A stretch of 64,000 nt of DNA from assembly GCA_900298995.1 (NCBI GenBank), contig OMIC01000003.1:1-64000 (forward strand), in the 5' to 3' direction. This DNA is from Hyphomicrobiaceae bacterium. GTDB lineage: Bacteria > Pseudomonadota > Alphaproteobacteria > Rhizobiales > Aestuariivirgaceae. A program made the translations under genes and the position numbers. Under the pieces are notes generated by a model, which was not told the origin of the DNA, made no database searches, and saw nothing but the letters and a program-made list of their open reading frames with translations. Numbering within the stretch: the stretch's first letter is position 1; each line of letters starts with the position of its first letter. Shown here piece by piece: positions 16,902-52,162 of the stretch.

Positions 16902-16986
16902 GCGGCCATGGCGGAATTGGTAGACGCACTAGCTTGAGGTGCTAGCGGGTAACACCGTGGAGGTTCGAGTCCTCTTGGCCGCACCA
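16902..16986 (+). tRNA. tRNA-Leu (GAG)
   Basis: The acceptor stem GCGGCCA pairs with TGGCCGC, followed by encoded ACCA. The anticodon stem CTAGC/GCTAG encloses loop TTGAGGT, with anticodon GAG at 16936-16938, reading CUC/CUU codons. A long variable arm and the T-loop GTTCGAGTCC identify leucine class II tRNA. Length is 85 nt. A T-run (16987-16991) follows the gene. Confidence 0.97.
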
Positions 16987-17038
16987 TTTTTCCAGGAAAA
17001 CTGTTAACTCTCCCGGCGGATTTCGCGGGCGGCACGAT

Positions 17039-17124
17039 TGGTGCGGGCGGAGGGAATCGAACCCTCACTTCCTTGCAGAAAGCGGATTTTAAGTCCGCTG
17101 CGTCTACCGTTCCGCCACGCCCGC
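17039..17124 (-). tRNA. tRNA-Leu (TAA)
   Basis: On the minus strand the acceptor GCGGGCG pairs with CGCCCGC before encoded ACCA. The anticodon stem GCGGA/TCCGC encloses CTTAAAA, giving anticodon TAA. The long variable arm and GTTCGATTCC T-loop fit leucine class II. Length is 86 nt. It faces the tRNA-Leu(GAG) gene, whose 3' end is 52 bp away. Confidence 0.97.
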
Positions 17125-22043: not shown

Positions 22044-22454
22044 ATGGCGCGCGTCACCGTTGAAGACTGCATCGACAAGCTTCCCAACCGCTTTGAACTG
22101 GTTCTGCTGGCGGCCCATCGCGCCCGCTCGATCTCGCAGGGCGCGCCGATCACGGTAGAGCGCGACAACGACAAGAATCCGGTCGTTGCGCTTCGTGAAA
22201 TCGCTGATTCCACAGTCGTTCCTGAGGATCTCCGCGAGGAATACATCCACTCCATGCAGAAGCATGTCGAGGTGGACGAGCCGGAAGCGACCGAAGTTCC
22301 TTTGATCCAGCAGTCGGGCGACATGGTCATGGTCAATGACGCAGCCGACGAGGATCAGCCCGAAATGGAGCGGATGACCGAGGAGGACCTTCTTCGAGGC
22401 CTTGAGGGCATGCCGCCGGCCGAAAGCCCGGGGAGCCAGCGCAACGGCTATTGA
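22044..22454 (+). CDS. rpoZ: RNA polymerase omega subunit
   Basis: This 136-residue protein opens with [28 protein letters not shown], the omega signature, followed by [14 protein letters not shown]. Omega helps fold beta-prime and forms part of the ppGpp site. The C-terminal acidic tail makes it longer than the E. coli protein (91), as is usual in alphaproteobacteria. It precedes rel, a conserved arrangement, and is separated from it by an intrinsic terminator. Confidence 0.96.
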
Positions 22455-22479
22455 GCCGGACGCGATTGCAAAGTTTCAT

Positions 22480-22508
22480 GGCCGGACCACTGGAGTCCGG
22501 CCTTTTTT
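22480..22508 (+). terminator. Rho-independent terminator after rpoZ
   Basis: GGCCGGAC (22480-22487) pairs perfectly with GTCCGGCC (22495-22502) around a 7-nt loop and is followed by six T residues (22503-22508). The last T is 16 bp before the rel start codon, so rel must be reached by read-through or from a promoter inside this short zone. Confidence 0.9.
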
Positions 22509-22524
22509 GTCGTAGACTGCCGCC

Positions 22525-47794: not shown

Positions 47795-47950
47795 ATGGCG
47801 CGCATGCGCAAGAAAGAGGCGCTGCCCTCCAAGCTCTGCGAGTCTTGCGGGCGGCCCTTCTCGTGGCGCAGGAAATGGCAGCGTGACTGGGACAATGTGA
47901 AGACCTGTTCGGACCGCTGCCGCACCGCACTGAAAACGAAGGCCAGATGA
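47795..47950 (+). CDS. DUF2256 zinc-finger-like small protein
   Basis: This 51-residue basic protein has LPSKLCESCGRPFSWRRKWQRDWDNVKTCSDRC, the four-cysteine DUF2256 signature (two CxxC-like pairs). The family is often encoded next to FeS-BCP photolyases. It starts 2 bp after the SDR stop and overlaps the photolyase start by 4 bp (ATGA), so all three are probably translated from one message. Its role is not known. Confidence 0.88.
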   Translation: MARMRKKEALPSKLCESCGRPFSWRRKWQRDWDNVKTCSDRCRTALKTKAR

Positions 47951-49455
47951 GCACGCTGCGTATCGTTCTGGGCGACCAGCTCACGCATGGGCTGTCATCC
48001 CTTCGCGACCATGCGCCGGGCGACACGGTGCTGATGATGGAAGTGGCGGAAGAAGCCATCTATGTCAGACATCACAAGCAGAAGCTTACGCTGATCTTTT
48101 CTGCCATGCGCCATTTCGCAGCGGAATTGCGCGCCGCGGGTCTCACCGTCGACTATGTCCGGCTTGATGATCCGGCAAACACCGGCACTTTCACCACCGA
48201 GGTCGAGCGCGCCATTGCGCGTCACCCGTCGTCGGCGATCGTGGTGACGGAGCCCGGCGAGTGGCGGGTGCGCGAGATGATGCGGAGCTGGGGTGCCGAG
48301 ATCCGCAACGATGACCGATTCTTCTCGACACCTGCCGGTTTCGCGGCCTGGGCCAAAGGCCGCAAGCAATTGCGCATGGAATATTTCTACCGCGACATGC
48401 GGCGCGGCTCCGGGCTGCTGATGGAGGGTGACGACCCGGTGGGCGGCCAGTGGAATTTCGACTCCGAGAACCGCAAGTCACTTCCCCGCGATGCGAGACC
48501 GCCGGAACGTCAGCGCTTCGAACCCGATGGGCTGACACGCGAAGTGATTGACATGGTCGCGGCGCGCTTTCCGGGTCATTTCGGCGATCTCGAGCCTTTC
48601 GGCTGGGCGGTGACACGGCCGGATGCGCTGGAAGCGCTCGATCACTTCATCACCGCCTGTCTGCCGCAGTTCGGCGACTATCAGGACGCCATGAAACAGG
48701 GCAATGGCTTCCTCTATCATTCGGTCATCTCACCCTATATCAACATCGGGCTCCTGACCGCACGCGAGGTCTGTGCGCGCGCCGAGCTGGCCTGGAAACA
48801 GGGCAGGGCGCCCCTCAACGCGGTCGAAGGCTTCATCCGTCAGGTGCTGGGGTGGCGTGAATATGTGCGCGGGCTCTACTGGCTGAAGATGCCGGCCTAT
48901 GGCGAAACAAATGCTTTGGAAGCCCGCCGCCCCCTGCCGGAGTTCTACTGGACCGGGGAAACGGACATGAACTGCCTGCGCCAGACGATCGGCGAGACCA
49001 GGCGACATGCCTATGCGCATCACATTCAGCGCCTGATGGTCACAGGCAATTTCGCACTGCTTGCGGGCCTCGATCCGAAGGCGGTGGAGGAATGGTATCT
49101 CCTGGTATATGCCGATGCCTTCGAATGGGTGGAGCTTCCCAACACCCACGGCATGGCTCTGTTTGCCGATGGCGGCATCATGGCATCAAAGCCCTATGCG
49201 GCGTCGGGCGCCTACATCAACCGCATGTCGGACTATTGTGCCGGGTGCCGCTTCGATCCGGCGGAGAAGCTTGGTCCAAAGGCCTGTCCGTTCAACTACC
49301 TCTATTGGGATTTCCTGATGCGGAATGAGAAGCACCTCCGCCGCAATCCGCGCATGGCCATGCCCTACCGTACGCTTTCCAGGATGGATGACGCTCGAAA
49401 GCAGGAGATCCTGGGAGCCGCGGCATCGTTCCTCGCCACGCTTCAACCTGCATGA
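47947..49455 (+). CDS. phrB: Iron-sulfur bacterial cryptochrome / (6-4) photolyase (PhrB type)
   Basis: This 502-residue flavoprotein belongs to the FeS-BCP/CryPro group, light-driven (6-4) photolyases. The four cluster cysteines are C343, C431, C434 and C447; the spacing of 88, 3 and 13 residues equals that of the Agrobacterium PhrB cluster (C350, C438, C441, C454). An N-terminal Rossmann domain binds the antenna (LRIVLGDQLTHGL) and the helical FAD domain includes EGFIRQVLGWREYVRG and HIQRLMVTGNFALL. It shares a transcript with DUF2256. It repairs UV lesions or signals light; which one is not visible. Confidence 0.92.
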   Translation: MSTLRIVLGDQLTHGLSSLRDHAPGDTVLMMEVAEEAIYVRHHKQKLTLIFSAMRHFAAELRAAGLTVDYVRLDDPANTGTFTTEVERAIARHPSSAIVVTEPGEWRVREMMRSWGAEIRNDDRFFSTPAGFAAWAKGRKQLRMEYFYRDMRRGSGLLMEGDDPVGGQWNFDSENRKSLPRDARPPERQRFEPDGLTREVIDMVAARFPGHFGDLEPFGWAVTRPDALEALDHFITACLPQFGDYQDAMKQGNGFLYHSVISPYINIGLLTAREVCARAELAWKQGRAPLNAVEGFIRQVLGWREYVRGLYWLKMPAYGETNALEARRPLPEFYWTGETDMNCLRQTIGETRRHAYAHHIQRLMVTGNFALLAGLDPKAVEEWYLLVYADAFEWVELPNTHGMALFADGGIMASKPYAASGAYINRMSDYCAGCRFDPAEKLGPKACPFNYLYWDFLMRNEKHLRRNPRMAMPYRTLSRMDDARKQEILGAAASFLATLQPA

Positions 49456-49486
49456 AAAAACCGCCACCGCACGGAGCGGTGGCGGT
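49455..49486 (-). terminator. Rho-independent terminator, minus strand
   Basis: ACCGCCACCGC (49460-49470) pairs with GCGGTGGCGGT (49476-49486) over 11 bp with a 5-nt loop. On the minus strand six T residues (49460-49455) follow, so it terminates minus-strand transcription. It touches the phrB stop codon, and may also stabilise the phrB 3' end. Confidence 0.88.
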
Positions 49487-49557
49487 CGCCTCGATGGACC
49501 CTGCGGCCCTTAGGGAAGCGGAGTCCCCTCTACTCAAACCCCAGCCTTTCGGCCGGC
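49455..49557 (-). ncRNA. Candidate small RNA with its own promoter and terminator
   Basis: The minus strand of the phrB to nitroreductase gap has TTGCGC and TATGGT hexamers 16 bp apart, then about 100 nt ending in a strong hairpin followed by T6. Within the transcript CCGGCC-GAAA-GGCTGG forms a 6-bp stem (one GU pair) with a GNRA tetraloop, and GAGT/ACTC and GGG/CCC pairs lie further along. No ORF of length fits. I do not recognise the family. The 5' end is estimated at about 49557. Confidence 0.65.
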
Positions 49558-49563
49558 TCCCTG

Positions 49564-49591
49564 ACCATAGCCTGCGCGGGGGGTGGCGCAA
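49564..49591 (-). promoter_or_regulatory. Sigma70-type promoter of the candidate small RNA
   Basis: On the minus strand TTGCGC (49591-49586) and TATGGT (49569-49564) are 16 bp apart, with four of six bases matching TTGACA and five of six TATAAT. It drives toward the 49455 terminator. Found by eye only. Confidence 0.5.
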
Positions 49592-49599
49592 GCGACAGC

Positions 49600-49614
49600 C
49601 TAACAATTGGTTAA
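49600..49614. promoter_or_regulatory. Near-perfect CtrA-type box
   Basis: CTAA at 49600-49603 and TTAA at 49611-49614 are exactly seven bases apart; the CtrA consensus is TTAA-N7-TTAA, so only one base differs. It is about -43 to -57 from the estimated start of the small RNA and about 60 bp upstream of the nitroreductase ATG, so either could be the target. Confidence 0.45.
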
Positions 49615-49674
49615 GATCGCAGCGTCATGGCGCCCGCCATTGCCTTTTGGGGGGAAGACCGCCAGATTGCTGCC

Positions 49675-50265
49675 ATGTCGGACCTCAACGATACATCGAC
49701 GGTGCTGCGCCTTCTAGAGACCCGAAAATCGGCCTCCGCGAAGGCGATGACGGGTCCGGGCCCGTCGGCGTCGGATCTTGACCGGATCCTGGCCTGCGCC
49801 GTGCGTGTGCCTGATCACGGCAAGCTTGCGCCGTGGCGTTTCCTCCTGTGGGAGGGGGAGGCGAGGTCCCAGTTCGGCGAGATCATGCGGGCCCGATGGC
49901 AGGCGCTCCATCCCGATCATGGCGCCGAGAGCCTTGATTTCGTGAGGGGTCTGTTCCTCCGGGCTCCTGTCGTGCTGGGCGTGATCTCGACGGCGGCGGA
50001 GCATCCCAAGATCCCTGTCTGGGAGCAGCAGCTCTCGGCCGGTGCGGTATGCATGAACATTCTGATAGCCGCGACGGCGCTGGGATTTGGCTGCCAGTGG
50101 AACACCGACTGGGTCGCCTATGACCGTGAAATCGCCGCCGCCATGGGCCTCGCGCCTCATGAACGGGTGGCTGGGCTGATTTATCTGGGTCAGGCCCTGT
50201 CGCCGCTCGAGGACAGGCCACGTCCGGATGCGGCTGCACTGCTCACGCGCTGGAAAACGCGATGA
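49675..50265 (+). CDS. Nitroreductase family protein
   Basis: This 196-residue flavin-dependent protein belongs to the nitroreductase superfamily (YdjA-like): VRVPDHGKLAPWRFLLWEG has the FMN-contact region and GAVCMNILIAATALGFGCQWNTD the second conserved segment. It uses NAD(P)H to reduce nitro compounds or quinones, but the physiological substrate is unknown. ATG 49675 is chosen because the open frame from 49627 adds unlike residues. It overlaps the HAD gene by 4 bp. Confidence 0.88.
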   Translation: MSDLNDTSTVLRLLETRKSASAKAMTGPGPSASDLDRILACAVRVPDHGKLAPWRFLLWEGEARSQFGEIMRARWQALHPDHGAESLDFVRGLFLRAPVVLGVISTAAEHPKIPVWEQQLSAGAVCMNILIAATALGFGCQWNTDWVAYDREIAAAMGLAPHERVAGLIYLGQALSPLEDRPRPDAAALLTRWKTR

Positions 50266-50966: not shown

Positions 50967-51556
50967 TGTTCTATGACGCGGTGAAGAACGACCACGGTCT
51001 GGCGCTCGACCCCTTCAAGGCCCTCGTCGCGCCCCGTCCGATCGGCTGGATCTCGACGGTTTCGGCGGCGGGCATCGCCAACCTTGCACCCTACAGCTTC
51101 TTCAACGCCTTCGCGCAGGATCCGCACTATGTTGCCTTCGGTAGTGGTCCGCCGAAGGATACGCTGCGCAACATCGAGGCCACGGGCGAGTTTGCGGTCA
51201 ATCTCGCCACCTGGGATCTGCGGGAGCAGATGAACCTCTCATCGGCGCATGTCGCCACGGACGAATTCGAGCTGGCGAAGCTTGAGAGGGCGCCTTGCCG
51301 CTTCATCAAGGCGCCGCGCGTGGCGGATAGTCCGGCCTGCCTGGAGTGCAGGCTCTTTCAGATCATCCCGTTGCCCGACGACACTGGCACGGCTGAGAAC
51401 CACATGGTGATCGGGCGCGTGCTGGGCGTTCACATCGCGGATCGCTTCGTGAAGGAAGGCCGGGTCGATACGGTTGCCATGCGGCCCATCGCCAGGCTCG
51501 GCTACAGCGACTACATCACGGTGTCCGAGGCCTGGCGTCTCCGCCGGCCGGACTAG
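50966..51556 (+). CDS. Flavin reductase-like domain protein
   Basis: This 196-residue protein has the split-barrel flavin reductase fold: LVAPRPIGWISTVSAAGIANLAPYSFFNAF and DTLRNIEATGEFAVNLAT bind FMN. It may supply reduced flavin or act as an oxidoreductase. Start overlaps the HAD stop by one base, so nitroreductase-HAD-flavin reductase form one operon. A 237-bp gap containing a CtrA box follows. Confidence 0.87.
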   Translation: MFYDAVKNDHGLALDPFKALVAPRPIGWISTVSAAGIANLAPYSFFNAFAQDPHYVAFGSGPPKDTLRNIEATGEFAVNLATWDLREQMNLSSAHVATDEFELAKLERAPCRFIKAPRVADSPACLECRLFQIIPLPDDTGTAENHMVIGRVLGVHIADRFVKEGRVDTVAMRPIARLGYSDYITVSEAWRLRRPD

Positions 51557-51706: not shown

Positions 51707-51722
51707 TTAACGCGTCGTTAAC
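51707..51722 (+). promoter_or_regulatory. Perfect CtrA-type box upstream of the pseudo-receiver gene
   Basis: The bases TTAACGCGTCGTTAAC give TTAA-N7-TTAAC, exactly the consensus of the alphaproteobacterial cell-cycle regulator CtrA. It lies about 72-87 bp before the ATG at 51794. The same gap (51557-51793) also has a GTTAAC half-site near 51640. No other gene-like sequence is in this gap. Confidence 0.7.
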
Positions 51723-51793: not shown

Positions 51794-52162
51794 ATGACCC
51801 GGTGTCTGCTGATTGATGACAATGGCCGCAGCCGGCAGCATCTGCACCAGATGCTGTCGGGCCTTGGTCTTGAGACGTTTTTCAGCACGGGGGCTGACGA
51901 GGCTGTCAGGTTCTGCAACGACAACGCCCCCGATGTGGTGCTGGTGTCGGCAAACGCGAAGGGCGGACCGACCCGTGAGTTCGTGAAGCGGTTGCGGCTG
52001 AGCGGGCAGGGAAAGCCGCCCGTTGTTTTCCTCTACGCCGAGACGGCGGACACGGCCCTCTTCGGTCAGACGATCCTCGATGGCGCGGCGGATGTCCTGA
52101 TGCTGCCCTTCGACCGCGACCTCCTGCATTTCAAACTGCGTCAGGCCGGCCTGCAGGTCTGA
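51794..52162 (+). CDS. Stand-alone pseudo-receiver domain protein
   Basis: This 122-residue protein has the receiver fold (CLLIDDNGRSRQHLHQML) with acidic residues Asp8 and Asp9, but the phospho-acceptor Asp is Ser52 in VVLVSANAKGG. The conserved switch Thr (VVFLYAETAD) and the Lys (LMLPF) also appear lost. It has no output domain. It therefore cannot work as an ordinary phosphorylated regulator and may bind a partner constitutively. It is led by a perfect CtrA box and followed by an MFS gene. Confidence 0.85.
   Translation: MTRCLLIDDNGRSRQHLHQMLSGLGLETFFSTGADEAVRFCNDNAPDVVLVSANAKGGPTREFVKRLRLSGQGKPPVVFLYAETADTALFGQTILDGAADVLMLPFDRDLLHFKLRQAGLQV

Follow-up and report, generated by a model that had tools for sequence, protein, structure and literature searches.

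The minus-strand element between a photolyase-related gene and a nitroreductase gene in the window (the whole 64,000-nucleotide stretch of DNA analysed here) appears to be a promoter and 5′ leader left behind by a gene that this genome has lost and its relatives have kept, a reading to which we give about three chances in four. Judged by comparison with the relatives, it is most likely an attenuator leader that was orphaned by the loss of its open reading frame (ORF) and could give a noncoding RNA of ~105 nt. An earlier sequence-only reading of the same DNA had proposed a small regulatory RNA that no ORF explained. Of that proposal, a structured minus-strand RNA region stands, together with a promoter region, a terminator-like hairpin and a box that are conserved in relatives. 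The independent small-RNA gene does not, since in relatives the region does not lie outside the leader of a protein gene but is itself the 5′ leader and first codons of such a gene, which the window genome lacks.

Table 1. Features of the element and of its neighbours in the window
Feature	Position	Strand	Remark
CtrA-type box TTAACCAATTGTTAG	49600..49614	minus	one base off TTAA-N7-TTAA
Promoter-like TTGCGC - 16 nt - TATGGT	49564..49591	minus	TTGCGC 49591-49586, TATGGT 49569-49564; TTG invariant in 32/32 aligned genus rows
Hairpin H1, CCGGCC-GAAA-GGCTGG	49541..49556	minus	stem 49556-49541, near the predicted RNA 5′ end
AGAGGGGACT	49522..49531	minus	site of the relatives' Shine-Dalgarno (SD) sequence
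Start-codon block	49485..49521	minus	start codon, hairpin H2 and first codons in relatives; unrecognisable in the window
Hairpin H3, terminator-like, with T6	49455..49487	minus	stem starts at 49487, T6 at 49460-49455; relatives' hairpin here sits in signal-peptide codons
Match to covariance model R1	49452..49559	minus	model of 21 relatives, window excluded; 32.0 bits, E = 7.7e-8
Photolyase-related gene (DPRP; phrB in the sequence-only reading and below)	47947..49455	plus	convergent with the RNA
Nitroreductase-family gene	49672..50265 (listed ORF opens at 49627)	plus	divergent from the RNA; locus anchor in relatives

The element and its counterpart in related genomes

The promoter-like hexamers 16 bp apart, the GAAA-loop stem, the terminator hairpin with T6 and the CtrA-type box one base from consensus that had been described before are all present on the minus strand, with the terminator stem, earlier given as 11 bp, counted here as 12 pairs (two of them using T-run bases) around a 5-nt loop. 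Three terminator-like sites were called between 49300 and 49800, where 0.5 were expected, and two of the three are the window H3. A 107-nt RNA from the element is predicted to fold at −56.6 kcal/mol (z = −2.75), and none of 200 dinucleotide shuffles was as stable; a longer stretch of 161 nt gave z = −2.45, with 3/200 shuffles as stable. Downstream of AGAGGGGACT, no start codon lies within reach.

A search of the element against Rfam, which the sequence-only reading had suggested, returned no family at its gathering score. The best match was a weak one over the full length to ar14 (RF02344), a small RNA known from Rhizobiales, which the element resembles in its hairpins and terminator. It scored 19.4 bits (E = 0.11) against a cutoff of 58.8 bits, and none of 20 genus loci searched reached the gathering score. 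We therefore rejected membership of ar14, and an independent alphaproteobacterial small RNA of this kind is very improbable, as relatives have a gene leader at this place.

When the element was compared by BLAST with 100 genomes (its own and those of relatives), four matched: the window, a genome of the same genus (G029) and two weak, short matches. The G029 match, 36-37 nt at 95% identity, adjoins the same nitroreductase gene, which is present in 35/37 genus genomes and served as an anchor, so that the region upstream of it could be read in 35 genus loci (30 and 5 from two retrievals). In 31 of these, an ORF of 285-318 aa follows the leader (213 aa in the exception, L025); L008 runs into a contig end, and there is no ORF in L006 (the window), L038 (genome G027) or L040 (genome G013). 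The gene is divergent from the nitroreductase gene, and the element corresponds in the genus to its promoter and 5′ leader, which comprises a CtrA-type box, the 5′ hairpin H1, an SD, the start-codon hairpin H2 and H3 in signal-peptide codons. The comparison with related genomes that had been proposed thus found both the hairpins and the promoter region conserved. An H1-type pattern occurs in 26/32 genus loci scanned. In three leaders (L026, L029 and L032), an extra GGCGCC-type stem is inserted between H1 and the SD.

The gene was not found in the window genome, which is 99.36% complete, either with the protein of one relative as query (best E = 0.36) or with a family profile, which gave no match. 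Within the genus, G013 and G016 were also without a profile match, and the sole match in G027 (E = 5e-15) lies in a 562-aa frame. By the same profile, the gene is present in 57/69 genomes and 9/10 genera of the family; at E = 1e-10, 267/297 genomes of the order match, often within larger proteins. A structural model of the lost protein is all beta (mean pLDDT 86.4) and resembles pilins, adhesins and Ig proteins only loosely in fold (TM ≤0.31 among the 50 matches listed). We found no significant Pfam or NCBIfam family for it, and no PDB sequence matched its profile better than E = 0.42. Its N-terminal stretch looks like a signal peptide, and the product is probably secreted; L010:2246-3187 and its relatives exemplify this protein group.

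Among eight relatives for which the surrounding DNA was fetched, six have the gene flanked by phrB and the nitroreductase gene, with phrB 0.3 to 2.3 kb beyond it; in the other two, phrB is absent from the fetched stretch. This suggests that phrB was probably once followed by other DNA, the lost gene and the nitroreductase gene, in that order, and that the window lost the ORF along with adjoining DNA. A tree of the nitroreductase and a HAD protein places the window beside a six-genome clade (support 85) that keeps the gene and is without H1. The window H1 may be read as ancestral, because G029 and G034, which lie outside this clade, have it. The gene is present without a clear H1 or H3 in two close relatives, G035 and G006, and thus the element is dispensable; six further genus loci are without H1.

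RNA-level selection in the relatives' leader

Across the relatives, H2 and H3 covary and fold more stably than the protein sequence requires, and an excess of T follows the H3 stem. Both hairpins were recovered from a 32-row leader alignment, in which 14 of the 18 predicted pairs show a double change. In 21 selected rows, 96.8% of H2/H3 cells are paired and 59 cells carry double changes, compared to 18.5 ± 3.6 after shuffling (0/500 shuffles reached this number), both figures ignoring kinship, while partners slid by 1-3 columns pair in only 36-52%. H1 has zero double changes in the same 21 rows, with 92.4% of its cells paired. Synonymous-codon shuffles of 31 ORFs (100 each) gave a mean z of −3.27 at nt 0-75, kinship again being ignored, and −0.9 to +0.5 for the intervals listed from nt 45 on. 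Several ORFs are weak at nt 0-75 (z = −0.3 in L007 and L013, −1.2 in L011 and L016, −1.8 in L015), and isolated intervals elsewhere reach z = −3 to −4.6. After the H3 stem, T occupies 6.17 of 9 positions versus 5.03 in synonymous shuffles (30 ORFs, irrespective of kinship), with no excess in L009 and L028.

These tests draw on different sets of loci. The 30-row alignment (A1) omits L006, L008, L038 and L040, which have no ORF or are cut by a contig end, as well as L025, whose frame ends at 213 aa; the 32-row leader alignment (A2) omits L007, L008 and L040; and the T-run test omits L007. The 21-row alignment with a named structure (A3) omits the three loci with the extra stem and the rows without H1, and it leaves out L006 and L038 on purpose, as a held-out test.

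The relatives' H3 might be something other than a terminator, either a hairpin that slows ribosomes for export or a DNA palindrome. It sits in signal-peptide-like codons, the amino acids partly account for the T-rich codons (the 5.03/9 expected above), and several hairpins of other genera have no clear T-run (e.g. L078, L082 and L087). We nevertheless consider such a role unlikely: the G-U pairs among the H2/H3 changes point to RNA and argue against a DNA palindrome, and the excess of T over synonymous shuffles in the genus argues for termination.

Covariance model R1, built from the 21 rows, finds the window (Table 1; E = 3.6e-6 over its genome) and G027 (43.6 bits), the two genomes held out. 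Of the two close relatives named above, G006 gives a weak match (25.7 bits) and G035 none. In the family, R1 matches 34/69 genomes, 33 of them in the genus and one outside. As this amounts to only 2/10 genera, what can be said of the other genera comes from scanning 23 loci in the eight that have the gene. Here a strict TTAA-N7-TTAA box was present in 21/23 loci, and the best early-ORF hairpin in each of 22 scored loci had 9 or more pairs, in a scan that always reports a best hairpin and had no shuffle control; the automatic H1 call chose other stems in several loci. Box and early hairpin are kept in these eight genera, with stem sequences that differ. In other families of the order, the two occur together in 3 of the 23 best-scoring loci scanned, all from one family (f36).

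A second R1 match in the window, at 22413-22512 (17.7 bits, E = 0.00089), was treated as chance; it overlaps the 3′ end of a 136-aa ORF together with the T6 hairpin that follows, ahead of a 722-aa ORF. Further copies of the element in its own genome were sought through H1-like patterns with ≤2 mismatches, which gave no clear evidence (22, compared to 14 in a reversed control), and no similar plasmid DNA was found for the element.

We envisage that, in the relatives, the promoter with its CtrA-type box, which CtrA would bind, makes an mRNA that starts near H1 and carries the SD. This mRNA would fold around the start codon (H2) and meet H3 within about the first 25 codons, which are signal-peptide-like. 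H3 would terminate transcription, and a translating ribosome would open or cover it and so allow transcription to continue; poor initiation would let H3 form and yield a short RNA, a translation-sensitive attenuation. The arrangement expected of an attenuator, a GC-rich hairpin with a T-run 3′ of the promoter and before or early in the gene, is found in the genus, and in the window, where the gene is lost, hairpin and T-run are still present. Only the terminated form, a noncoding RNA of about the length given above, would be possible there: with the ORF gone and the start codon and frame destroyed, any transcript should end at H3.

What remains in genomes that lost the ORF

The window has not diverged evenly from its relatives. 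Seven relatives with H1 were compared with it block by block. From H1 to the SD, the window is identical to G029 at 35/37 positions and to the six others at 27 to 32 of 36-40 (shuffled, about 20-23). The start-codon block matches that of G029 at 20/37 positions (shuffled, 21.6 ± 1.6), those of the seven relatives at 19 to 21 of 37-39, and those of five of the six sister genomes at 22 to 25 of 40-41, the latter two ranges being at or close to what shuffling gives. The two blocks are 34/39 and 34/38 identical when G034 is compared with G029. In an ungapped comparison with L014, made by eye, the window has TTC at the start-codon position, and the reading frame is shifted by the hairpin loop and runs for 24 codons before a stop.

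In the window, H1 and the terminator thus persist beside a coding start that is unrecognisable, a contrast suggestive of ongoing selection, whether on the noncoding RNA or on its terminator. The terminated RNA may already have acted alone, so that this lineage keeps the product as an orphan small RNA under CtrA-type control. We entertain this tentatively. Box, promoter, H1 and terminator survive next to an erased coding block, and G027, which lies outside the model, matches R1 at the score given above without an ORF; on the other side, the species is represented by one genome, in which one exchange of the middle block would produce the same appearance, and G027 has lost the SD, with a fold like that of shuffled sequence.

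We regard it as quite possible, if short of even odds, that the leader is instead a decaying vestige, functionless since the ORF was lost, and that any RNA made from it is noise; as a reading of the present state, this is compatible with an origin as an orphaned leader. Other genomes that lost the ORF fit such decay. G013 has lost the gene, and its leader is unrecognisable as well. G027 (L038/L094) has kept the box, H1 and a weaker H3, its SD is changed, and its RNA is no more stably folded than shuffles (z = −0.63). The window itself no longer has a recognisable H2 or start codon. What decay explains poorly is the near-identity to G029 from H1 to the SD beside a random-like block, and a terminator that still has 12 stem pairs, a short loop and T6.

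The terminator could also be kept as an insulator, blocking a leftover divergent promoter from running antisense into phrB, and the final base of the phrB stop codon is indeed where its T-run ends. This is distinctly unlikely, as it leaves the conserved block with H1 and the SD unexplained.

Returning to the orphaned leader, its fuller form may be put as follows: in a family of Hyphomicrobiales, a CtrA-box promoter gives a short RNA that ends in the signal-peptide codons of a secreted protein, and the window species lost the ORF and kept the RNA as a free regulator. We advance this form with reserve, as a possibility. If true, a covarying, terminator-like hairpin kept in signal-peptide codons behind a CtrA-type promoter would link a surface or secreted protein in an unusual way to translation and perhaps to the cell cycle; the element would be a structured RNA without an Rfam family. 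The window would also suggest a birth route for orphan small RNAs, in which a terminated leader outlives its ORF.

The CtrA-type box and comparable systems

A scan for consensus sigma-70 promoters did not call the window promoter (0 found, 0.1 expected). The CtrA-type box in the window is weak when taken alone and lacks significance there: four one-mismatch boxes occur where 1.11 were expected, and 4/100 shuffles had at least four. It is notable because it is conserved in relatives, with TTAAC-N6-TTA in 34/35 genus loci and an identical distance from box to TTG in all 32 aligned genus rows. Two features expected of a CtrA-controlled promoter are present, namely a TTAA-N7-TTAA box upstream of the promoter at a constant distance, of which the window copy is one base off, and a CtrA homologue in the genome, a protein 82% identical over 127 aa to a CtrA receiver region. 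A study of Hyphomonas neptunium describes TTAA-N7-TTAAC in promoters of the CtrA regulon (PMC7200025), and the putative window box resembles these in standing upstream of a promoter.

We found no published description of the element among the matches listed, mostly titles and abstract openings. Among the most similar known systems is UpsM, a small RNA derived from the 5′ untranslated region (UTR) of the dcw cluster in Rhodobacteraceae and described as a leader whose transcription stops at a Rho-independent terminator, which yields a noncoding RNA 5′ of protein genes in Alphaproteobacteria (PMC5089854). UpsM is an observed RNA from the 268-nt UTR of a division cluster (PMC5089854), whereas the RNA of the present element is a predicted one, its terminator-like hairpin lies within coding sequence in relatives, and its gene is absent from the window. 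In the duf1127_1 leader of S. meliloti, from the same order, transcription past the leader responds to translation at the start of an ORF; the authors propose Rho-dependent termination governed by a separate uORF (PMC12218461). The mechanism suggested for the present element would differ in using an intrinsic-type hairpin in the protein's own first codons.

An exact TTAA-N7-TTAA box (TTAACGCGTCGTTAA) lies elsewhere in the window, at 51707-51721, between an ORF that ends at 51556 and one of 122 aa at 51794 whose product looks like a receiver domain. At 16902-17124, two tRNA genes on opposite strands face each other.
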